Notes under the pieces: model-generated
What the model was told of the DNA's origin: nothing
Databases searched by the model: none
Seen by the model: only the letters and a program-made list of their open reading frames with translations
Source: Pseudomonadota bacterium
GTDB taxonomy: Bacteria; Pseudomonadota; Alphaproteobacteria; Puniceispirillales; Marisalimonadaceae
Assembly: GCA_028382005.1 (NCBI GenBank)
Contig: JAOESH010000012.1
Location: 1 to 55,492, forward strand
Length of the DNA: 55,492 nt
Reading direction: 5' to 3'
Program-made: the position numbers and the translations under genes
In this document: positions 14,933 through 55,492 of the stretch, piece by piece
Layout of the letters: every line of letters starts with the position of its first letter
How positions within the stretch are numbered: the stretch's first letter is position 1

Positions 14933-15847
14933 ATGTTAAATCAAATTCCTAAGATAAATTTTAAATTATTGTCTAATGAAAATCATATTGATTATCAACG
15001 GGAAATAAACACATTAAAAAAAGCTGTGACTGATTACGGTTTTTTAATAATTAAAAATTATCCTATAGACTTTAAGGAAATTAATAATGTTTTTGATTTA
15101 TACAGAAATTTTTTTAATCAGAGTTTAGATGAAAAAGATACAGTTAACATGTCGAAAACATCATCAAACAGAGGTTGGGGTGGTATAAAAGCTGAACGCG
15201 TTAATACGGACTTTAATCCAGATAATAAAGAGATATTTGACTGTGGACCAGATATCAGAGTTAACCATGAGTTCCAAGAATTACCTTATTATTCAAAAAA
15301 TATTTGGCCAGAAAACATACCTATGTTTGAGACTAAAATTATGGAATTTTATAAATCATGCAGTCAAATTTCAATCTCAATCTTAAAACAAATTGAAATT
15401 TCATTAAATTATTCAAGTAACTATTTTGCTGATAAATTCGAATTACCAATGGCACTGTTAAGATGTAATTATTACCCCAAAAGATCAAAAGATATGTCAA
15501 AAAAAGACTTTGGTATAGCTCCTCACACAGATTATGGATGTTTAACACTTTTATTTACAGACGGAACTCCTGGTTTAGAAGTGGAACTTCCTAATAAAAA
15601 ATGGGAAAAGGTTATAGCTAATAAAGATGAAATTATAGTTAATTTTGGAGACATGCTTGAAATATGGTCAAAAAAACAAATTAAAGCTACCCCACATAGG
15701 GTTATAGGAGGAAATAAAGAGCGATTTTCAATTCCTTTTTTCTTCAACCCTCAATATGATACAGTCATTTCTGAAGATGAAAATATACTAGCAGGTGAGT
15801 ATTTGTCCCAAAGATATGATTCAACTTATGTACATAAAATTATTTAG
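14933..15847 (+). CDS. 2-oxoglutarate/Fe(II)-dependent oxygenase (isopenicillin N synthase-like)
   Basis: Non-haem iron dioxygenase of the IPNS-like family. The iron ligands are clear: APHTDYGCLTLLF (H198, D200) and ATPHRV (H255). The 2OG- or substrate-anchoring RFSIPFF (R264, S266) follows. The N-terminal non-haem dioxygenase domain includes DYGFLIIKNY. The length of 304 aa is normal. It is 62 bp downstream of the photolyase-like gene and may share its transcript. Substrate unknown. Confidence 0.9.
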   Translation: MLNQIPKINFKLLSNENHIDYQREINTLKKAVTDYGFLIIKNYPIDFKEINNVFDLYRNFFNQSLDEKDTVNMSKTSSNRGWGGIKAERVNTDFNPDNKEIFDCGPDIRVNHEFQELPYYSKNIWPENIPMFETKIMEFYKSCSQISISILKQIEISLNYSSNYFADKFELPMALLRCNYYPKRSKDMSKKDFGIAPHTDYGCLTLLFTDGTPGLEVELPNKKWEKVIANKDEIIVNFGDMLEIWSKKQIKATPHRVIGGNKERFSIPFFFNPQYDTVISEDENILAGEYLSQRYDSTYVHKII

Positions 15848-15854
15848 TGATTGT

Positions 15855-16433
15855 TTATCTCAAGCCGTCTTTTCCTTCAACTTCATCAGCTTCTAATCCA
15901 CCCATTCTATTATTTATCCTAGGACCTTTAGTCATTGCTAGACAAAACATAATTTCGTTTGCTCTTGGAGCGTCTGTTACGCTTACTTCATATGCATCAA
16001 AATGACTTCTGACATATGCCGCGTTTGTATGGCCTAATGGAATATCAATTGATGACCCCATTCCCGCCACTTTCATTGCTGAAGGAACTATGGCCTTAGA
16101 ATTTTTAAGCCTTTTGCGCATTGCATAACCACCAGGTACATGCCAAAGAGCTGTGTGTTCTAACTCTCCATTTTCTCCAACAATAGCCGCTTTGCCATAA
16201 CCGTCAATACCATTAGTACCACCTAAAGTATCTATTAAACGATCAGTTAACATTAAGCCAAGATCTTTAAGGTTCTCCATGCCTGACTGTAATTCTTCAT
16301 GATAAGTTTCTGCATATGGATTGGATACTATGCCAACAGCTGCTGCTCTTATTCTTGGTATAGGTTGAATTGGTCCATTTTCATGAAAAATTTCTTCTTT
16401 TAATATAATTACTTTTCTTAATTTGAAATCCAT
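15855..16433 (-). CDS. Amino acid synthesis family protein (DUF1185-like)
   Basis: Matches my memory of the DUF1185 or 'amino acid synthesis' family: PRIRAAAVGIVSNPYAETYHE, GKAAIVGENGELEHTALW, MRKRLKNSKAIVPSAMK, SSIDIPLGHTNAAYVRSHFDA and SVTDAPRANEI. Function is not established despite the name. 192 aa is typical. It is transcribed with the peroxiredoxin gene 30 bp upstream. Confidence 0.8.
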   Translation of the reverse strand: MDFKLRKVIILKEEIFHENGPIQPIPRIRAAAVGIVSNPYAETYHEELQSGMENLKDLGLMLTDRLIDTLGGTNGIDGYGKAAIVGENGELEHTALWHVPGGYAMRKRLKNSKAIVPSAMKVAGMGSSIDIPLGHTNAAYVRSHFDAYEVSVTDAPRANEIMFCLAMTKGPRINNRMGGLEADEVEGKDGLR

Positions 16434-16463
16434 TTGAAGACCCTATCTATACATTTAAAAAAT

Positions 16464-16982
16464 TTATTTGTTTCCTCTTACAGGATACTGTTTTTCATCA
16501 GCAAAAACTAATTTGGCAGGGAGAGAACTAATATCAGGTCTAGCAAAAGGCATATTACTAGTGTTAACAAGATACAATGATCCGTCTTCTTTAATAATAA
16601 ATAAACCTGGTTCACAAAAAACGTCAGATTCAGCTTCTTTAATTGAACTAGAAATATATAAATTCCATTCTCTTGCTTTTTCTTCACTAAGATCATAAGC
16701 AATCTTTAGGTTATGTAAACTCCATTCATCTTTAGCTTTTAATGCTTTTTCTTTATTATCCATGGAGACTGCAATAACTTCTGTATTAGATTTTTTATAA
16801 TCAGATAACTGATTATCAATTAATTTTAAAAATTCAGAACATATAGGACAATGTAAACCTCTATAAAAAACTACCATTGTCTTAGTTTTATTTAAATTAG
16901 ATCCTAAAGACCACTTATCATTGTCTAATGTGTTTAAAACAAGAGCAGGTGTTTTTTTGCCAGGAACAATATTACTAGTCAT
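16464..16982 (-). CDS. AhpC/TSA-type peroxiredoxin-like protein (copy 1)
   Basis: Thioredoxin-fold protein of the AhpC/TSA family, 172 aa, no signal peptide. A CxxC pair (C45, C48) sits in FYRGLHCPICSEF, right after the beta strand, as in thiol peroxidase-like members. It probably reduces peroxides or acts as a thiol-disulfide protein. A second gene of identical length (54443-54961) encodes a protein about 80% identical by eye, inside the inverted-repeat element at the end of the window. Confidence 0.85.
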   Translation of the reverse strand: MTSNIVPGKKTPALVLNTLDNDKWSLGSNLNKTKTMVVFYRGLHCPICSEFLKLIDNQLSDYKKSNTEVIAVSMDNKEKALKAKDEWSLHNLKIAYDLSEEKAREWNLYISSSIKEAESDVFCEPGLFIIKEDGSLYLVNTSNMPFARPDISSLPAKLVFADEKQYPVRGNK

Positions 16983-31913: not shown

Positions 31914-32258
31914 TCAATGACAAATTTTCACTAGCCATAATACTCTTATAGATGCACTTTGGTTTATATTTCTTAGTTATTTTATAATCTTGCCTTAAAT
32001 AACTTTTTTATTTACAAATTTAGAACTCAATTTTCTTTATAATTAGTAGTATAAAAGAAAAAGTTTTTCATTTATAAACCTCCTAGAATTCATAAAGCAA
32101 ATACCTTATAACATTTGAAATTATAATAATTTTCTACACAGTTTGGGATAAAATCTTGTCTAAAGTTATATTCTTTTTAAATAATATTCAAATATCAATG
32201 TGTTACAAAATAAGATTGTCTGCTCTAAAGTATTTTATGATAGCAATTTATTAAATTA
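31914..32258. repeat. Dispersed intergenic repeat, copy 1 (diverged)
   Basis: Most of the 31901-32366 gap is a diverged copy of an element seen again at 45885-46365 and 50903-51280. Shared pieces include TTTTTATTTACAAATTTAG, a minus-strand AGGAGGTTTATAAATGAAAA block (about 32060-32090) and the closing CTCTAAAGTA. This copy has lost the hairpin that the other two carry next to the ribosome-binding site. Confidence 0.65.
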
Positions 32259-38328: not shown

Positions 38329-38789
38329 AATTGCACGAGCCTTTTATGTTCTGATATTACTTCTAAGTCGAAAAACTTAATAATACCAACTTAAAGACTT
38401 TTAACTCCTTAAGTTTTGAAAATTTGTTATTATAAGATAATATTTTAATATTTTAGTTAGTCAAATATAATACCTAACATTATTTTAATACTACACTATA
38501 ATGTATTATAATAAAATATACATTACTAACCTTCCCCACATATCATAATTACAATGTAAAACTTTAATTGATACATATAAGTATTATTATTATTTTTAGG
38601 TATATTTATACATAATCTAAAATCAAAGCTTAGCAGTGTGTGTTGTGCATGAGAAGTGGACAGAACCTTTCCTCAGTACAATTTTTTTACTTTAATATAA
38701 CGTGTTAAAACATTTATATTTAATAAAATATTTTACGTTCTAATTAGAAATCAGGATCACAAATTCTGTAATCTTTCGACCCTCAGATT
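38329..38789. other. Gene-free AT-rich spacer
   Basis: No open frame with a start and ribosome-binding site. It contains short palindromic AT tracts (for example around 38485-38520) and a segment near 38570-38625 that loosely resembles part of the inverted repeats at the window end. Confidence 0.5.
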
Positions 38790-45888: not shown

Positions 45889-46365
45889 AGTTCTTTAAAA
45901 ATATTCCATGAATTAAGATATTCATTAAATTTAAATTAAAAATGTAGATATTGCGGTTAAAAAATAAATTAAAAATAATATTAGATAAAATCAAACTTAT
46001 CTACTTCCATCAACCTTAAAACTAAGTCATGTTGTGAAATAATAGATAGTAATTAGTACATGGTTCTTAATTATTTAATAATATTGCCTTGAATTAACCT
46101 TTTTATTTACAAATTTAGAACTAAATTTTTCATATACTTAATTATATAAAAGAAAAAAGTTTTTCATTTATAAACCTCCTATAGGCATTAGCTATTCATA
46201 GAGCTAATGCCTTAAAACTTTATAATAACATAATAAATCATACTTGTTTTGTTATACAGTTTGTTATACGAACTTTTTTACAACTGCATAATTTTAGAAA
46301 ATAGCATTAAATATTAATGCGTTATAAAAGAAGATGATGCGCTCTAAAGTAAGTTCCATGCCCTT
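45885..46365. repeat. Dispersed repeat, copy 2 (both modules)
   Basis: The left part (to about 46101) matches 41477-41702; the right part matches 31975-32258 and 51010-51280. Features of the right part: TTTTTATTTACAAATTTAGAA, a minus-strand AGGAGG-TTTATAA-ATG block, an 11-bp hairpin, and a pair of TATACAGTTTG-type repeats. Overall the copies are clearly homologous but not identical, so the family is old. Confidence 0.8.
46183..46212 (-). promoter_or_regulatory. Hairpin directly upstream of Shine-Dalgarno and ATG (copy 2)
   Basis: Perfect arms AGGCATTAGCT and AGCTAATGCCT around an 8-nt loop. On the minus strand it is followed by AGGAGGTTTATAA and an ATG that opens a short frame (MKNFFLLYN). 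There is no T-tract on either side, so it is not a standard terminator. It may control initiation at that ATG. Confidence 0.55.
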
Positions 46366-47965: not shown

Positions 47966-48188
47966 TAGATGGTTTTAAAGATTTGTACGAAATTTTATTA
48001 ATTTTAGGTTCAAAACTATAAATATTATCTTACATTTTTTATTGATTTTTGAAGGGTTAAAAAAATCCTTTGCAACAATTCTAATAAATCATATTAATCT
48101 CCTAAGTCAATTTGGATATTTGTCTTAACTACAGTTCATTATACTGTCTATATTGACGAATTTTATTCTATTGTGGGAGTCATTCTAA

Positions 48189-48785
48189 GTGAAAAATAGT
48201 AGAACAAAGAAAGACACTGTTAGACGAAGTAAAGAGGGAAAATTTCTATTTGAACCTGTATCCAGATATGTGATGTATGACAATAAAACAAAACTCTGGG
48301 TTAATCATAGAAAAAGAGCTTATCTAATTTGGTTTAAGTTTCTTCAACATTGTCATAGAGATAAAAACTTCAAAGTTGATTGGTCAAAATATCAAGGTTG
48401 GGGTGGGTGGAATTTACTCATGGATACTGATTTTGATACTTGGTGGAATAGAAATTGGGTAAATTTATTTGCTGTTAAAGAAAAAGGTGAAACCCCAAAG
48501 TTCCCAACTAATACTAAAACAAAGATATCTAATTATAATTCTTTAAGACTTTATCTTTTGGTTTATGAATATCAATTAAAATATCCAGCAGCAGATACTT
48601 ATGAAATTTCTCAAAGAATTAAAAAAAGAGAACCTTTTAAAAGATACCCAGTACCATCTTTTACTGAAGGATTAGGTTTTGATGGTGGAGTAATCAATAA
48701 GAGAACTGTCAAGAGAAGAATGAGTGATTATAAAAAAAGAGCAAACGAAATAATGGAAAATGTTTGTAACGGGGTTTTTCCATAA
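48189..48785 (+). CDS. Hypothetical Trp-rich protein
   Basis: 198 aa, GTG start with GGAG 9 nt upstream. Very basic N-terminus, then a Trp- and aromatic-rich middle (KYQGWGGWNLLMD, FDTWWNRNWVNLF) and a basic C-terminus. Not recognised; the region around FDTWWNRNWVNLF recalls proteins seen in mobile elements but I cannot name a family. The next small frame starts inside its stop codon. Confidence 0.65.
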   Translation: MKNSRTKKDTVRRSKEGKFLFEPVSRYVMYDNKTKLWVNHRKRAYLIWFKFLQHCHRDKNFKVDWSKYQGWGGWNLLMDTDFDTWWNRNWVNLFAVKEKGETPKFPTNTKTKISNYNSLRLYLLVYEYQLKYPAADTYEISQRIKKREPFKRYPVPSFTEGLGFDGGVINKRTVKRRMSDYKKRANEIMENVCNGVFP

Positions 48786-48904
48786 TGAAAAAACAATTTT
48801 TTATAAGTTTCCTATTATGTTCTTTTTTTAAAAAAACATATTCTAAAGAAAAAAAATTAAATATGAACAACATAAAAAACTTATTGAAAATAAACTTTTA
48901 TTAA
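48785..48904 (+). CDS. Small exported peptide, possibly frameshifted
   Basis: The ATG overlaps the upstream stop (TAATG). The first 20 residues MKKQFFISFLLCSFFKKTYS look like a signal sequence. In the present frame it ends after 39 residues. One extra A in an A8 run at about 48851-48858 would instead continue it as KKIKYEQHKKLIENKLLLNS, ending at a TAA near 48921, which is more protein-like. The gene may be broken, or the run may vary. Confidence 0.45.
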   Translation: MKKQFFISFLLCSFFKKTYSKEKKLNMNNIKNLLKINFY

Positions 48905-49060
48905 ATTCATTTAAAAAGTAAGAAAAATATATTAGTGAAACATCCGTTGAATTATTTTTAAATTGTAATGATATAAATAAATAAAAGAAATGAAAAGAGT
49001 AAGTTCTCAGAATAATTTCCTATATTTTTAGATAAAAATTCTTAAAACATAAAAGATTAA

Positions 49061-49117
49061 TAAGAGTGATTAACTAAAATGCAAATGAAGTTTGTCTTTT
49101 TTAATTAATCACTCTTA
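49061..49117. repeat. 13-bp inverted repeat
   Basis: Perfect arms TAAGAGTGATTAA and TTAATCACTCTTA with about 31 nt between. It lies in the 48905-49203 spacer, which has no gene. Stem-loop of unknown role; without a following T-run on the plus strand it is not a clear terminator. Confidence 0.5.
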
Positions 49118-49203
49118 ATTCTGTTTAGTAGATATTTATTTCATATGCAGAAAAATAAAGTTATTCTAAATTATATCAATATTGTATGAGGTAATTAAAT
49201 ATT

Positions 49204-49317
49204 ATGAGTAAAAATCTCAAAGTTTTTATGGGAATAGTCTGTTTTTTTGTTTTATTAAAAGGTTATATCTTTTTTAATATTAACCCTTCAATATACATTA
49301 ATCCTTTAATGAATTAG
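49204..49317 (+). CDS. Possible 37-aa membrane peptide
   Basis: ATG at 49204, stop at 49315-49317. One hydrophobic helix near VFMGIVCFFVLLKGYIFF. The GAGG upstream is about 12 nt away, a poor distance, so the call is weak. 49318-49476 holds no gene. Confidence 0.35.
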   Translation: MSKNLKVFMGIVCFFVLLKGYIFFNINPSIYINPLMN

Positions 49318-49476
49318 TCATTGGAAAAGTCTTAAAACCATTTTCTCTCTGGATAATATCGAGATTTATAAATGGGTTTTATTAAATTCCATATCTTTAT
49401 TATTGGATTTATGTATAGTTGAAACATTATGTCTAATTCGTCTATAGACTTTTTTTGAAAGTTACATAATCTTTAA

Positions 49477-49980
49477 ATGAAAAAAATTTCACTATTTATT
49501 GTTTTCTTCTTACTTCAATCTTTTCCTTCTTTTGGAAGTGTAGATAGTAAAGGTATTGTTTGTGAATGTTTAGATTGTAATTTAGATCATATAGATCCTT
49601 CTTCATACATACCTGATAACAAACCAACAGAAATAGGATTTCATTTTAAATTTAATAAAGTAGCGATATATTACATCAGTAAAATTGGTGATGATATAAA
49701 AGTAAGTGAGAACAATCAAACAAGTCTTCGAAAGAAAAAAAGATTTTCTACAGATGAAAATAAAATCAAATGGACTTATAGAGATAGTTTAAATATTTAT
49801 GCTTACGAATTAGATAGAAAAACTTTAAATTTAAGTAAAATGAATATAATAAAAATTGAAACACACAATCTTAGAATGTGTGAGGCATTTTCAGAAATTG
49901 ATTTTTTTAAAAATATGAATCAATTATCTGAAAAGTATCAAAATAGTTATAATGACAAACCCAAAAAAAATAAAATTTAA
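49477..49980 (+). CDS. Hypothetical secreted protein
   Basis: 167 aa with a signal peptide (MKKISLFIVFFLLQSFPSFG). The mature protein has an early CECLDC motif (two Cys pairs) and a later Cys in MCEAF. It has polar beta-type strands with NIYAYELDRKTLNLSKMN. Not recognised. Different from the 20969/26201 pair. Confidence 0.65.
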   Translation: MKKISLFIVFFLLQSFPSFGSVDSKGIVCECLDCNLDHIDPSSYIPDNKPTEIGFHFKFNKVAIYYISKIGDDIKVSENNQTSLRKKKRFSTDENKIKWTYRDSLNIYAYELDRKTLNLSKMNIIKIETHNLRMCEAFSEIDFFKNMNQLSEKYQNSYNDKPKKNKI

Positions 49981-50002
49981 TGAGAAAATAACGTAAATTA
50001 TT

Positions 50003-50113
50003 TTACAAAGTTATGAATATTGAAACTCTATTTTGGGTTTTGCTCATTGCTGGCTTATCACCACCGGTATCTTTATAATTTATTTCGTTTCCATTTATGT
50101 TTGCTAAGGGCAT
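50003..50113 (-). pseudogene. Remnant of an alpha/beta hydrolase N-terminus
   Basis: Frame with ATG at 50113 and GGAG upstream reads MPLANINGNEINYKDTGGDK then PAMSKT, exactly how many alpha/beta hydrolases begin before the HG oxyanion motif. The sequence then leaves the family and stops after 36 residues. It starts 18 bp after the 50132-50749 gene, so an operon partner seems to have been deleted. Confidence 0.6.
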
Positions 50114-50131
50114 TGTTTCTCCTTTTACAAA

Positions 50132-50749
50132 TTATATCATTCTTACTACGTTAGAAGCTTTTAATTTTCCAATCTCATTAGCTTTATTAACCACGTTTTG
50201 AAATGCTTCAGACATACCAACTCTGTCAATGATATCTCCCATAGATTCAAATGACGAATAGTAATAAATAACAAATAAAGTGTCCATTTTGTCTGCTATT
50301 ATTGGATAAAGACCTAAAATTTTAGTATCCTCATCTTTACCAATAGCCTCCACTTCAGCAAGTAGCTCAACTGATCGGGGAACATACTTTCTGTCAACTT
50401 CATATTCTCTAATCAGTAATATATTATGTTCTGGAGAAGGCTGTCCGTAAACACTTCTATAAACTTCAGGTCCAATCAAATGTCCTGATGGATCATCATC
50501 TCTTTTACTCATTAATTCCATAATTTCTTTATTTTTGCTCAAACTAGCAAAAGATTTAGTTGCGGATGTCATATCAGTATAAGCTGCAGTTAGTTGAATG
50601 GCGCCATTAAGCTCGCCACCAACAAACATACTCAACCTCGCCTTAACTCCATTTGAAACCATTATATCTTTATACTTTGGAGAACGCTCTAAAGCAGTTT
50701 TAGATTTACCTAAAATAGGTTTTAAAATTCTTCTTGAAATTATAGCCAT
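50132..50749 (-). CDS. Hypothetical protein, probable dimeric alpha/beta-barrel
   Basis: 205 aa. Two ferredoxin-like halves are suggested by NILLIREYEVDRKYVPRSVEL and TLFVIYYYSSFESMGDIID. Looks like a NIPSNAP/ABM-type protein but I cannot assign it. It was followed by a hydrolase gene of which only the start remains. Confidence 0.6.
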   Translation of the reverse strand: MAIISRRILKPILGKSKTALERSPKYKDIMVSNGVKARLSMFVGGELNGAIQLTAAYTDMTSATKSFASLSKNKEIMELMSKRDDDPSGHLIGPEVYRSVYGQPSPEHNILLIREYEVDRKYVPRSVELLAEVEAIGKDEDTKILGLYPIIADKMDTLFVIYYYSSFESMGDIIDRVGMSEAFQNVVNKANEIGKLKASNVVRMI

Positions 50750-50953
50750 TTACTTTTCCTTTGATAATAAGAACTGTTATCATTATCTTAACTATTTTAT
50801 TATGTTTTTAAAAATTAATTTTTAGTAAGTTTGATTTTAATATTATTTTGATTATCTTTTAGGCAATTAAATCTCAACAAAAGGAAATATTTAAAACCAA
50901 TAAAAGACAACTTTTCACTACCCTAATTCGGACATAGATCGGCATTGGTCCGT

Positions 50954-50985
50954 GGTTCTTGGTACTTGGTACTTGGTACTTGGTT
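50954..50985. repeat. 7-bp tandem repeat
   Basis: GGTTCTT, then GGTACTT three times, then GGTT. A microsatellite inside repeat copy 3; other copies have only one unit at the same place. Confidence 0.8.
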
Positions 50986-51097
50986 GTTAAATAGTATTGC
51001 CTTGAATTAACCTTTTTATTTACAAATTTAGAACTAAATTTTCCATATAATTATTAATATAAAAGAAAAAAATGTTTTTCATTTATAATCCTCCTAA

Positions 51098-51127
51098 AGG
51101 CATTAGCTATTCATAGAGCTAATGCCT
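51098..51127 (-). promoter_or_regulatory. Hairpin upstream of Shine-Dalgarno and ATG (copy 3)
   Basis: Same arms as at 46183-46212 with the same loop, again followed on the minus strand by AGGAGG, seven bases, and ATG AAA AAC. The frame here reads MKNIFFFYINNYMENL. Conservation of the whole block in two of three otherwise diverged repeats suggests that it is under selection. Confidence 0.55.
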
Positions 51128-51283
51128 TAAAACTTTAAGATTACATTCAAAATCATACTAATTTTGGTATACAGTTTGGTATACAACCTTGTCTACAGCG
51201 ACATCTCATTTAAAAATAATTTATAAATATCAATATGTTATAAAATAATATGGTGCTCTCTGAAAGAGTTCCATTCCTTACAT

Positions 51284-51655
51284 ATGCATCGTGCTCTACC
51301 ACAATCAAGCTATACGTTAAGATATGAATACGTATGGCATTGTCAATAGGCACGATATGTTTCACACTTTGTTTTACATCTTAATTAACCGTTACCAGTA
51401 CAGAGTAAGTGGGTATGGATATGTATAAATATACCTAACTATATTAACACTTATATGTATCATTTAAAGTGTTACCACCCCACACAAGAGCCATCCCACC
51501 AACCTGCGTATAGTATACATGTGCTCTGCAGCAGATAGGGTAAATATAGTGTTAACCATGTGGAGATGATTGAAGTGTCAAGTGGATGGGTTGGTGGATG
51601 TGTAGGTTATATGTATATAGGGTCTGCAGCAGATGGTGTGTTGGGAGTATTAACC
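51284..51655 (+). repeat. Left long terminal inverted repeat
   Basis: About 370 bp that match, reversed, the last ~388 bp of the window. The core 51446-51580 (135 bp) is identical to 55189-55323; the outer and inner parts are diverged with small gaps. It contains two copies of CTGCAGCAGAT about 95 bp apart and an AGTGTTAACCATG element. G+C is visibly higher than in the surroundings. Confidence 0.9.
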
Positions 51656-51924
51656 ATCAGAAGAATGATTGCTGACTCATACAGAGTCATACAGCAGGGT
51701 TAATGTTATCAGAGTCAATGGTCATGAGATGTGGTTAGTGTGGGTGTGTGAGTCTGTTTGAGTCAGGGATTAATTATGTAGGCTATTTATGTATAGGGTG
51801 AACAGCTGATGGAATGGTAGAAGAGTAGAATTATATTTTTTGATATAAATAAATAATTTCCATCTAAATATGTTATTTACTTATTATGTACTTTTCTAAT
51901 TAATTTAAATTAAAAGAGGAGAAA
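51656..51924. other. Repeat-like region inside the element
   Basis: No gene. Around 51777-51820 is a degraded relative of the inner part of the inverted repeat (TGTAGGCTATTTATGTATAG, then AACAGCTGATGG). Short GAGTCA and GTGTG motifs recur. It probably also holds the promoter for the gene at 51925. Confidence 0.5.
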
Positions 51925-52320
51925 ATGATGGGTAAACTCAATACAAAATCACAAAAAATAATATTTACTATTCAATGTAGTATCAAGTCTGATGCTAACG
52001 AATTTAGAAAATGGGCAAATGACCGTGCCGCAAAATACGTATTTAATTTAAAAGAAGAAAAAACCATAAGTTATGAATGGTATTTGTCTGATGATAATTC
52101 AGAAGCAACATTAGTAGAGTCATTTATTGACAGTGATGGTGCAATGCAACGTTTGAACAACCATATGTCAAGCCCTATAGCCGAAGAAATAATGCAGCAT
52201 GTTGATATTAAAGAATGGCTAGTTTTTGGTAATTCTAAACAAGATTTAATTGATGCACTAACTCCTTTTGGTGCCAAATTCAAAAAGCACCATTCTGGCT
52301 TCAATCATAGTTCAGAATAA
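51925..52320 (+). CDS. Antibiotic biosynthesis monooxygenase-like (ABM) protein
   Basis: 131 aa, AGAGGAG upstream of a double ATG. The pattern of a dimeric alpha/beta barrel is clear: IIFTIQCSIKSDANEFRKWA, SYEWYLSDDNSEATLVESFI and GAMQRLNNHMSSP. Members act on quinones or as small monooxygenases; no metal site is needed. It lies 32 bp before the polymerase-like gene on the same strand. Confidence 0.75.
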   Translation: MMGKLNTKSQKIIFTIQCSIKSDANEFRKWANDRAAKYVFNLKEEKTISYEWYLSDDNSEATLVESFIDSDGAMQRLNNHMSSPIAEEIMQHVDIKEWLVFGNSKQDLIDALTPFGAKFKKHHSGFNHSSE

Positions 52321-52352
52321 CATTGTTCAATCCATAAAGATTAAGATAACCT

Positions 52353-53720
52353 ATGAACTCATTTGATGAACTATGTAAAAAACTAACTCAAGATGTTGCT
52401 AATAATATTGTTCAGGGTCGTTCATGGAAAGAAGAAGAACAGCTTCGCTTTGATTATGCAGTAAGACATCTGTTAATTGATTTATGGAAGAAGCATCATA
52501 CCCATCCAGATAATCATTCATCAATGCAGAAGAATAAAAACTTTTACTCTGCATTAAAACAATATCGTGACCCACAATTAACATACCGTATGGCTATTCA
52601 CGCTTTTGATGGTCTTCAAAAACTAGATATGATTTACGTTGTACAAGATGGTTATTATGACCGTATTAAAATGGAAGGTAGCTTAACAAGATATAAAGCT
52701 ACACTTCGTCTAGCTGAAATGTTTGAAGAACTAGAAGGACATCCAGTAATAACACTCAAACCTAATATTGATATTCAAACCATTTTACTTAGACATAAAG
52801 TTGATGGAAAAAGACAGATAGTTCCCTATGAAGAAGATAAAGATACAGAACAATGGAGAATAAATCTTAGAAAGATTAATCATTGCTTATCTAAACACAT
52901 ACTTGATTTAAGAATAAAAGATAAAGATGTAGAAATTTTGCAAGAGAGACTTTTATTAGATGATGATAAAGAACCAGTAGATTTAACTCATAAAATTTTA
53001 GTACGTATTTTTACTAATAACTCTTTTAAAGAAGGTGGAAGATTTTATAGAGGGTGGTGGCAAAATGTACCGAGTGAATACAGACCATTTATAACTATAG
53101 ATAGTAAGAAGACACAAGAACATGATTACTCTCAGCTAAACCCAAATATGATTTATTCACTCTATAATCATGAATTAGGAAGTGAAGATGCGTATTCAAG
53201 AGTGTTAGGACCAGAACATCGTGATGTCATTAAACAAGCTTTCAATGCAATGTTTCAGGCCAAAACAGAACTTAAAAACAAACCTAATAACATTAACATT
53301 GATAAACTTGAGATAACTTGGAAAGAATTAAAAGAAGAAATACTTAAAGCACATAAACCTATTAAAGATTTATTCTTCACTGGACTTGGGAACAAGTTGC
53401 AATTTGAAGATAGCATAATAGCTGAAAGTATAATGCTTCAATTTGCTAAGATGGATGTACCAGCATTACCTGTACATGATAGTTTTATAATACATCATGG
53501 ATTTGGAACTTATGGTGAATTAGAAGAAGCTATGAGAAGAGCATTTCATGAAAGGTTCCATAGAGACATAGGTATTAAAAGAGAGTTAGTTGTACAACAA
53601 AAGTCTAACATTACAGAAAAACATGAGTTTGCATCGCCATCATTTGACAATATAGTTAATGCAGAGAATGATTACTCTCAATGGAGAGATAGAGATGATA
53701 TGTGGATGAGCAGGAAATAA
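52353..53720 (+). CDS. Palm-domain polymerase-like protein (PolA/T7 RNA polymerase superfamily resemblance)
   Basis: 455 aa. Three motifs in the right order and spacing resemble the family-A DNA polymerase and single-subunit RNA polymerase palm and fingers: motif A EHDYSQLNPNMIYSLY (D258), motif B RDVIKQAFNAMFQA (R290, K294) and motif C PALPVHDSFIIHH (H375, D376). There is no recognisable 3'-5' exonuclease domain; the N-terminal ~230 residues are helical and unassigned. I recall similar hypothetical proteins in alphaproteobacteria, usually unannotated. It sits between long inverted repeats and may replicate or maintain the element (inference). Confidence 0.7.
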   Translation: MNSFDELCKKLTQDVANNIVQGRSWKEEEQLRFDYAVRHLLIDLWKKHHTHPDNHSSMQKNKNFYSALKQYRDPQLTYRMAIHAFDGLQKLDMIYVVQDGYYDRIKMEGSLTRYKATLRLAEMFEELEGHPVITLKPNIDIQTILLRHKVDGKRQIVPYEEDKDTEQWRINLRKINHCLSKHILDLRIKDKDVEILQERLLLDDDKEPVDLTHKILVRIFTNNSFKEGGRFYRGWWQNVPSEYRPFITIDSKKTQEHDYSQLNPNMIYSLYNHELGSEDAYSRVLGPEHRDVIKQAFNAMFQAKTELKNKPNNINIDKLEITWKELKEEILKAHKPIKDLFFTGLGNKLQFEDSIIAESIMLQFAKMDVPALPVHDSFIIHHGFGTYGELEEAMRRAFHERFHRDIGIKRELVVQQKSNITEKHEFASPSFDNIVNAENDYSQWRDRDDMWMSRK

Positions 53721-53722
53721 CA

Positions 53723-53866
53723 GTGCTTAATAAAATGAAGAAATGGCATATTATTTTAATTGAAAAAGTACAAAAATATACTGGTTTGTCTAACTATCAA
53801 ATAATTTGGCTTGGTTTTTTAGAAGGGTTACTAATTGGTATTTTGATAGGGTATTATTTAATATGA
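53723..53866 (+). CDS. 47-aa single-pass membrane protein, paralog of 22487-22633
   Basis: GTG at 53723 two bases after the polymerase stop, or ATG at 53735; stop at 53864-53866. One C-terminal transmembrane helix. NYQIIWL and FLEGL, then GILIGYY, are shared with the chromosomal 48-aa protein. The stop overlaps the ATG of the acetyltransferase (TGATG), which suggests coupled translation. Confidence 0.75.
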   Translation: MLNKMKKWHIILIEKVQKYTGLSNYQIIWLGFLEGLLIGILIGYYLI

Positions 53867-53929
53867 TGAAAAAAAACTAAGTTATTTGAAATAAGAAAAT
53901 TATCTGACAACGATTTCATAAATTGGAAA

Positions 53930-54322
53930 ATGTTGTGGAAACAATATATAGAATTTTATCAAAGTTCAGTAGAAGATATAGTTTATGAAACTACGTTTAA
54001 AAGATTGATTTCAAGCAATCACCTCTCTCAAAATGCTCTTGTTGCAAATGAAGGAAAGAACCTTATAGGGTTAGTTCATTTTATTTATCATCCTCATAAT
54101 TGGAAAATTGAAGACGTTTGCTATTTGCAGGATTTGTTTGTTTCACCAACGCTACGAGGAACTGGTGTTGGACGTGCACTCATTGAAGCTGTTTATTCAG
54201 GCGCAGACAAAAACAAAACTTCAACTGTTTACTGGCTCACTCAAGATTCTAATCAACAAGCTAGAAAACTTTATGATAACATTGGTTCAGTTACATCTTT
54301 TATAAAGTATAATCGCCATTGA
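53930..54322 (+). CDS. GNAT acetyltransferase with a disrupted start
   Basis: Acetyl-CoA-dependent N-acetyltransferase: LQDLFVSPTLRGTGVGRALI is the CoA-binding motif and ARKLYDNIGSV the usual C-terminal motif. The frame open from 53930 lacks the first strand. That strand (KLFEIRKLSDNDFINWK) is encoded in the same frame just upstream but has no start codon. The ATG at 53866 would supply it if the A8 run at 53869-53876 had seven A's, giving 151 aa, the normal size. Confidence 0.8.
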   Translation: MLWKQYIEFYQSSVEDIVYETTFKRLISSNHLSQNALVANEGKNLIGLVHFIYHPHNWKIEDVCYLQDLFVSPTLRGTGVGRALIEAVYSGADKNKTSTVYWLTQDSNQQARKLYDNIGSVTSFIKYNRH

Positions 54323-54342
54323 TTTGTGACTTATTTATATAA

Positions 54343-54435
54343 CTCCATCTGCTGCAGACCCTATGTATATAGCCATACCATCATGTCCTATCAGTGGGCA
54401 GAACATTTAAAATGATATATATCTGTGTTTATTAT
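54343..54435 (-). repeat. Shortened internal copy of the inverted repeat
   Basis: Begins CCATCTGCTGCAGACCCTAT, matching the left repeat read backwards near 51608-51635, then after a deletion continues AACATTTAAAATGATATATA and TTTATTATAGTTA, like 55297-55335. Same orientation as the right repeat. It separates the peroxiredoxin gene from the acetyltransferase. Confidence 0.7.
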
Positions 54436-54442
54436 AGTTAAT

Positions 54443-54961
54443 TTACTTATTACCTCTTACAGGGTATTGTTTTTCTTCAGCAAATAATAATTTAGCTGGA
54501 AGAGAACTAACGTCTGGTCTAGCCCAAGGCATATTACTAGTATTTACAATATACAATGAACCATCTTCTTTAATTACAAATAAACCTGGTTCACAGAAAA
54601 CATCACTCTCTGCTTCCTTAATAGAATTAGAAATATATAAATTCCATTCTCTTGCTTTGTCTTCACTAAGACCATAAGCTAAATTAAGATTAGTTAAATT
54701 CCAATCATTTTTAGCTTTTAATGCTTTATCCTTATTATCCATAGAAACGGCAATTACCTCAGTATTAGATTTTTTATAATCTAAAATTTGTGTATCAATT
54801 AATTTAAGAAAATCTGAACATACAGGACAATGCAAACCTCTATAAAAAATAATCATAGATTTAGTTCTATTAAAATTACTTTCCAAAGACCATTTGTTAT
54901 TATCTAATGTGTCTAACGTAAGAGAAGGTGTCTTTTGTCCTGGAACTATATTGTTAATCAT
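54443..54961 (-). CDS. AhpC/TSA-type peroxiredoxin-like protein (copy 2)
   Basis: 172 aa, no gaps against copy 1 at 16464-16982 and about 80% identical by eye; CxxC is in FYRGLHCPVCSDF (C45, C48). The N- and C-termini (QYPVRGNK) are conserved. Differences are spread evenly and conservative, so both copies seem functional. It lies between the internal and right inverted repeats, transcribed toward the acetyltransferase. Confidence 0.85.
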   Translation of the reverse strand: MINNIVPGQKTPSLTLDTLDNNKWSLESNFNRTKSMIIFYRGLHCPVCSDFLKLIDTQILDYKKSNTEVIAVSMDNKDKALKAKNDWNLTNLNLAYGLSEDKAREWNLYISNSIKEAESDVFCEPGLFVIKEDGSLYIVNTSNMPWARPDVSSLPAKLLFAEEKQYPVRGNK

Positions 54962-55104
54962 TAAAAATCCTTAAAATAATATGTTAATTAAAAACTTATT
55001 TTAGATTTAATTATGTTTTTAACAAATAATTTTTTATAATAGTCTCTATGGTTTTTATAGATGAACACTTTTTTGATATTGCTTTACATCTGCAACACTT
55101 AATT

Positions 55105-55492
55105 GGTTAACACTCCCAAAACCTCATCTGCTGCAGACCTGCATACTCTATGTATATCTAATCCTACACACCCTCCAACCTTTCCACCTGACACTTCAAT
55201 CATCTCCACATGGTTAACACTATATTTACCCTATCTGCTGCAGAGCACATGTATACTATACGCAGGTTGGTGGGATGGCTCTTGTGTGGGGTGGTAACAC
55301 TTTAAATGATACATATAAGTGTTATTATAGTTAGATATATTTACACATATCCATGTCCACGTTCCCTATACTAAGAACGCTAATTTAATGTGTAAAACAA
55401 AGTGTGAAACATATCCTGCTTATTGACAATGCCATACGTATGCATATCTTAAGCTATAGCTTGATTGTATTCAGCTATGGTGCATACATACG
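55105..55492 (-). repeat. Right long terminal inverted repeat (runs to the window end)
   Basis: Reverse complement of 51284-51655; identical over 55189-55323. It contains CTGCTGCAG sites at about 55129 and 55230. The outer end has a CATACGTATG palindrome. The open frame at 55103-55297 lies in this repeat and is not a gene. Sequence beyond 55492 would be needed to find the end. Confidence 0.9.

Follow-up and report, generated by a model that had tools for sequence, protein, structure and literature searches.

Inverted repeats around a polymerase-like gene are attachment-site arms of a tRNA-targeting integrase element in Alphaproteobacteria

Tycheposons are bordered by a transfer RNA (tRNA) gene, encode a tyrosine recombinase, carry cargo and range from 4 to 200 kb (PMC10872708). 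Two opposed attachment sites, attP1 and attP2, are found in CTX-phi, where they could pair in the single strand (PMC3089051), and the yeast 2-micron plasmid contains 599-bp repeats and occurs as equal isomers (PMC3147054). Here we analyse a stretch of 55,492 nucleotides (the window: contig JAOESH010000012.1 of assembly GCA_028382005.1, forward strand) from a bacterium of the Marisalimonadaceae, in which long inverted repeats between positions 51,284 and 55,492 enclose a gene for a polymerase-like protein. The window is an entire contig (G000:C5, in our own numbering of genomes, G, contigs, C, and loci, L) of a genome that comprises 65 contigs and is estimated to be 80.7% complete. We find that the repeats represent the P' arms belonging to two attachment sites that face in opposite directions, those of a tyrosine-integrase element inserting at tRNA 3' ends, and that the window contains the cargo half of such an element in a diverged copy, on a contig that ends before the right-hand core.

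The original prediction, made from the letters of the window alone, held that long inverted repeats with an identical core enclose five genes, among them a palm-domain polymerase-like gene and no transposase. Consistent with this, the arms are 91% alike over 306 nucleotides (51301-51606 and 55163-55468), and a gapped alignment of 51301-51656 with 55104-55468 reaches 88.5% identity over 365 columns and scores 433 bits, compared with a maximum of 36 bits for 50 dinucleotide-shuffled versions of 48000-55492. The longest stretch identical in both arms is 136 bp, not 135 bp as predicted (Table 1). Five open frames lie between the arms, including the polymerase-like one and a frame of 54 amino acids that is doubtful as a gene. 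No transposase was recognised among the window frames scanned, these five included, and a DNA transposon with terminal inverted repeats was rejected for want of one between the arms. The contig stops 24 bases past the right arm; thus, the right-hand border is out of view.

Arm sequence was found on contigs that carry the polymerase gene (L041-L047) and also at loci without it, one in the window's own genome (G000:C55) and one in genome G022 (L198). We compared 28 loci with a gene for an EamA-type transporter with respect to occupancy of a site in tRNA-Gly(UCC). An intact tRNA lies beyond the transporter in 16 of these loci, whereas in nine the site is occupied and the sequence departs into an arm (in the remaining loci two contigs end and one, L137, has other content). 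In eight of the nine occupied loci the departure falls within the last 18-19 letters of tRNA-Gly(UCC); the occupied locus L131 has no recognisable core, and L134 was judged from the few letters before its contig end. Note that not all of the seemingly empty sites are pristine, since L119-L124, L126 and L132 still have a remnant resembling a P arm ahead of the tRNA; in L133, which is nearly empty, a core, a piece of P', P and the tRNA are left. The relatives contain a tyrosine integrase gene, the product of which bears DUF6538 and Phage_integrase (PF00589) domains (as in L055 and L087; no paper naming DUF6538 came up in our literature search), and in them the insertion sits at the tRNA 3' end and has the core repeated in direct orientation at its other end. 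(An integron-like attC array, our first reading of the scattered arm fragments, was rejected because the fragments are pieces of P' arms.)

One order is common to eight complete relatives, of which four are in single-contig genomes: chromosome, core, P', cargo, P', inverted core, P, integrase, P, core, tRNA. Within the genus it is clearest in L198, with core, P', cargo and P' followed by the inverted core, P, integrase, P and tRNA-Gly. Among 32 integrase places examined in the genus, 29 have a tRNA just upstream, and in 16 of these 29 an inverted tRNA core (counted at 14-16 of 16 letters) lies 1.3-2.3 kb away; the 13 loci without it consist of seven in which the contig ends less than 1 kb from the integrase, five with broken integrases and one intact classical island. 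Elsewhere in the order 31 loci were run, of which 21 were distinct and tRNA-adjacent, and the inverted core is present in 18 of the 21. It is lacking in L255, L268 and L269, the first two of which retain a partial inverted arm. Outside the order, where 5 genomes of 385 sampled from the class matched the integrase at 1e-60, four of five tRNA-adjacent loci have the inverted core, in perfect repeats of 80-93 bp (L274 is without). Altogether the inverted core was met at 12 kinds of tRNA (Arg-TCG, Arg-ACG, Gly-TCC, Gly-GCC, Gly-CCC, Leu-GAG, Leu-CAG, Phe-GAA, Thr-CGT, Thr-TGT, Asn-GTT and SeC-TCA). The named relatives are mostly single-cell genomes of the SAR116 cluster, and the occurrence of the order in the single-contig genomes G077, G082 and G124 argues against chimeras. 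We consider this anatomy, together with the part that the tRNA and the integrase play in it, very probably correct; the polymerase-like gene is one of several cargoes that such elements can carry.

Two further observations concern the make-up of these elements. At a tRNA-Thr in one single-contig genome (L253, 9565-19715), tandem elements with two integrases have cores that are inverted, direct, inverted and direct. In addition, small proteins of about 100-140 amino acids recur in changing order and company among arm fragments (L041, L046, L047, L058, L059 and L198), as if cargo genes were shuffled among them.

In the window, the best place for the 24 letters of the tRNA-Arg(TCG) 3' end is a degenerate core on the left (Table 1); the next best has 14 letters. 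This core sits just outside the P' arm, in the same position as in L059, and direct comparison detected no P arm on its outer side. (The stretch 50962-51250 was considered as a P arm of the Arg(ACG) lineage and rejected, as direct comparison found nothing.) The set of integrases had no match in the entire window by tblastn at 1e-3, and a search of 50000-55492 with Rfam returned nothing informative.

The second, inverted site is nearly identical to the first. Circles were modelled by script for the eight loci with an inverted and a further direct core (for L253, the first element only), and these circles, of 3.1-11.1 kb, have two attachment sites in opposite orientation. In seven of the eight, the attachment site at the circle junction (junction attP) matches the internal attP in inverted orientation over 267-495 bp, with 98.0-100% identity. 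In L253 and L259 the inner core and the distal core have letters in common at which both depart from the tRNA, as expected from two P' half-sites. The two P arms within one element (45 bp), compared in 30 elements with L256 excluded, are 84-100% alike, and 96-100% alike in 28 of them. The closest P arm of another element is 57 to 100% alike, and the element's own second P arm is the closest in 24 of the 30, with ties in two (L199 and L246). Homogenisation is thus clear between distant elements and irresolvable between close ones.

How does this layout compare with the described systems? Tycheposons and other tRNA-targeting tyrosine-integrase islands have the same target in the tRNA 3' end, a recombinase beside the tRNA and variable cargo; the excerpt of PMC10872708, however, makes no mention of an internal, inverted, near-identical second attP flanking the integrase. 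Compared by description, tycheposon traits fit the relatives in general, although the modelled circles start at 3.1 kb. With attP1 and attP2 of CTX-phi, and with integron attC, the elements share two opposed sites that could pair in a single strand. CTX-phi, however, relies on XerC/D of its host, and its sites are separated by about 90 bp, whereas the elements described here have their own integrase, target tRNA genes and have paired repeats of 267-495 bp that lie kilobases apart. The 2-micron plasmid (Flp/FRT) is alike in having a recombinase gene, two sites in long inverted repeats and two unique arcs (PMC3147054), but the elements here integrate at tRNA genes and have the integrase arc in a single orientation. 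Strand-biased circularizing integrative elements and Tn554 are similar in their tyrosine recombinases, circle and terminal inverted repeats; the former differ in having two recombinases and imperfect repeats of 13-19 bp (PMC10214605), whereas here the arc has a single integrase and the repeats run to hundreds of bases. No description of a layout with a second inverted attP was found in the literature searched by title and start of abstract, a search that did not take in the primary tycheposon paper, and novelty is therefore provisional.

The 455-amino-acid protein encoded between the arms matches phrog_4756 ("unknown function") with an E value of 1.5e-38 and shares 22-30% identical stretches with 18 phage records. 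A structure model built from 33 aligned sequences has a mean predicted local distance difference test score of 86.5, and Foldseek retrieved two PDB matches at E values of at most 0.001, the top one being the Pol1 polymerase domain 6vdd (E 5e-4, probability 1.00), with a template-modelling score of about 0.3 that makes it a partial match. Weaker matches include mitochondrial RNA polymerase and T7 DNA polymerase, and among viral models Foldseek retrieved phage relatives, one of which is named DNA polymerase. The candidate catalytic residues E256, D258, S260, R290 and K294 are invariant, and H375, D376 and S377 are conserved at 90% or more; we take these residues to belong to motifs A, B and C, with D258 and D376 in A and C, respectively. 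The modelled fold thus supports a palm polymerase with a family A-like fold, as originally predicted. (Searches of viral contigs, of PDB by sequence and of NCBIfam yielded nothing useful for this protein.) The phrog_4756 proteins of Vibrio, Aeromonas, Shewanella and Pseudoalteromonas phages belong to the same protein family, but they differ in being 22-30% identical and in their phage setting; no integrase annotation was found in two such phage neighbourhoods.

The ratio of nonsynonymous to synonymous substitution rates of the polymerase gene is 0.23-0.27 against five relatives, which indicates that selection has kept the gene. Among 40 congeneric genomes, 19 (counting that of the window) contain a member of phrog_4756, as do 47 of the 136 genomes examined in the order, and at least 21 of 75 polymerase places, many of which are on short contigs, have a listed family integrase within 12 kb on the same contig. 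Some tRNA-Gly islands (L049, L084, L087 and L090) carry the polymerase between direct copies of the tRNA-Gly 3' end and without such repeats. One of these, L084, also encodes a protein with RNase_T and Exonuc_X-T_C domains (15145-16542), possibly a separate proofreading partner of the polymerase. In L260 (12163-14039) a module of Prim-Pol (E 2.8e-30) and an AAA_25 ATPase (E 3e-31) replaces the phrog_4756 polymerase.

We propose the following function for the second site. The integrase likely recombines the two direct cores, so that the element would leave as a circle with two near-identical attP in inverted orientation, and this circle likely re-enters at a tRNA gene. A single-stranded form would fold one attP onto the other to give a double-stranded attP for the integrase; the copy would then be finished by synthesis of the second strand, perhaps through the palm polymerase in elements that have one, and repair within the stem would keep the arms alike. 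That the inverted site serves such folding is a tentative proposal, for which we put the chances a little below even. To the broader reading, we assign a probability of roughly 0.35: an alphaproteobacterial class of elements with a built-in inverted attP, in which the element's own strand would fold into the double-stranded site, as an integrase-encoding, tRNA-targeting counterpart of CTX-phi and the integron, with a family A-like polymerase making the second strand in some. In favour of folding are the likeness of the P arms within an element and the presence in the relatives of two opposed sites that, to judge from their inverted identity, could pair. Several findings weigh against our explanation as a whole. 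No single-stranded form, relaxase or rolling-circle protein came to light. The repeat of junction and internal attP is only 86 bp in L072, and L256 matches over the core and P' but not over P (0.53). In four of the 30 elements (L198, L228, L229 and L231) a P arm of another element is closer than the element's own. The placement of the window, with its one degenerate core, no integrase and no tRNA, rests on relatives, and its arms are just 88-91% alike, which makes it look like an older copy. Finally, relative to the same tRNA-Arg, a similar stretch of cargo lies one way round in L058 and the other way round in L047, for which inversion would be the simpler explanation.

This last finding would fit a double-stranded circle that uses its two sites as the 2-micron plasmid does, with the integrase recombining the inverted sites during replication, turning one fork round and amplifying the element; cargo arcs could also be exchanged between elements in this way. 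In seven of eight, the small modelled circles are indeed split in two, with a recombinase gene and an inverted repeat of 267-495 bp that contains the sites of the recombinase. Moreover, four of the eight cargo arcs have replication-type genes (phrog_4756 in L259, L261 and L262; Prim-Pol and an AAA ATPase in L260), which suggests that some excised forms replicate. The cargo, moreover, is not fixed in direction: transcription of the polymerase gene would run towards the integrase arc in L055, L259 and L262 but in the opposite direction in L047, L060 and L261. Free recombination of both sites, however, should leave the integrase arc both ways round, and the isomers of the 2-micron plasmid are equal in number. 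Instead, none of 50 distinct integrases for which a facing tRNA lies no more than 6 kb away is flipped: every one of them begins on the side of the tRNA, 48 within 500 bases. Nor did any of 18 short contigs show circular overlap. We therefore regard 2-micron-like inversion as rather unlikely, and the fixed integrase arc together with the strong self-complementarity of the sites leans towards single-strand folding, although the fixed orientation could also stem from selection. Somewhat more doubtful still is the idea that the inverted site is useless in transposition, a by-product of, for example, nested insertions that ordinary gene conversion has kept alike. Tandem insertions do occur (L253, L262 and L059), and gene conversion by itself could keep inverted repeats alike, but the same arrangement is seen at 12 kinds of tRNA, across several families and even beyond the order, and every time the integrase begins on the side of the tRNA.

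The original prediction had pointed to a possible mobile or self-replicating element and noted a likeness to protein-primed linear plasmids, which usually use family B enzymes. A mobile element with a family A/T7-like palm protein is supported; the repeats are not specific to the polymerase. A polymerase-driven, self-replicating element with the repeats as its own termini would account for a polymerase-like gene between long inverted repeats, and homologues do lie between inverted arms of 295-434 bp in L259, L261 and L262. However, the kinds of locus that the original prediction had named as speaking against it were in part encountered, with arms that lack the polymerase (G000:C55, L198, L072 and L256) and polymerases that lack the arms (the four tRNA-Gly islands). 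As the arms adjoin integrase cores and tRNA 3' ends and the fold matches are family A-like, a protein-primed linear plasmid was rejected, and we regard this explanation as largely refuted and very improbable; no terminal protein was recognised among the window frames scanned. An assembly or amplification artefact could be suspected given that the first relatives to be identified come from single-cell or metagenome assemblies and that the window's contig ends near the repeat, yet the window arms differ by about 10% and the same order is found in G077, G082 and G124, which refutes it to the point of being negligible.

The features of the window are collected in Table 1. A frame similar to that of the 131-amino-acid protein, 130-131 amino acids long, lies upstream of the polymerase in L042, L043, L044, L046 and L047; for the window protein itself, searches of Pfam, PHROG and NCBIfam gave no convincing match. 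A second attachment-like site, with a P' arm at 38596-38669 and a P arm at 38685-38744, indicates that the window probably contains older insertions as well. A dispersed repeat of about 290 bp (50962-51248, 46049-46332 and 31972-32213) has copies that are 75-83% alike in the window and also occurs in other genomes of the genus, and the gene at 50132-50749 has a copy with 90% identical DNA in the same genome (G000:C10) and copies at 75-78% in many congeners.

Table 1. Coordinates of features in and around the inverted repeats of the window
Feature	Position	Strand	Basis
Degenerate attachment core, tRNA 3'-end-like	51250..51274	-	16/24 letters of tRNA-Arg(TCG) 3' end
Left P' arm (inverted repeat)	51275..51656	+	Arm alignments
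136-bp stretch identical to right arm	51445..51580	+	
131-amino-acid protein	51925..52320	+	Open frame; no convincing family match
455-amino-acid polymerase-like protein, phrog_4756, family A-like palm	52353..53720	+	Profile match, fold model
54-amino-acid frame, doubtful gene	53702..53866	+	
GNAT acetyltransferase (cargo)	53930..54322	+	PF00583 E 1.2e-13
Extra piece of P'-arm sequence within cargo	54336..54449	-	
AhpC/TSA-type redoxin (cargo)	54443..54961	-	PF00578 E 1.5e-15
Right P' arm (inverted repeat)	55104..55486	-	Arm alignments
136-bp stretch identical to left arm	55189..55324	-	

SAR116 bacteria are abundant in the surface ocean. The elements described here bring cargo to a dozen kinds of tRNA gene in these bacteria and in some other alphaproteobacteria, and they provide a defined mobile context for a phage-type polymerase family that is as yet uncharacterised. 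Two opposed docking sites that are 98-100% alike were unexpected, and they point to single-stranded integration or to recombination-driven amplification.

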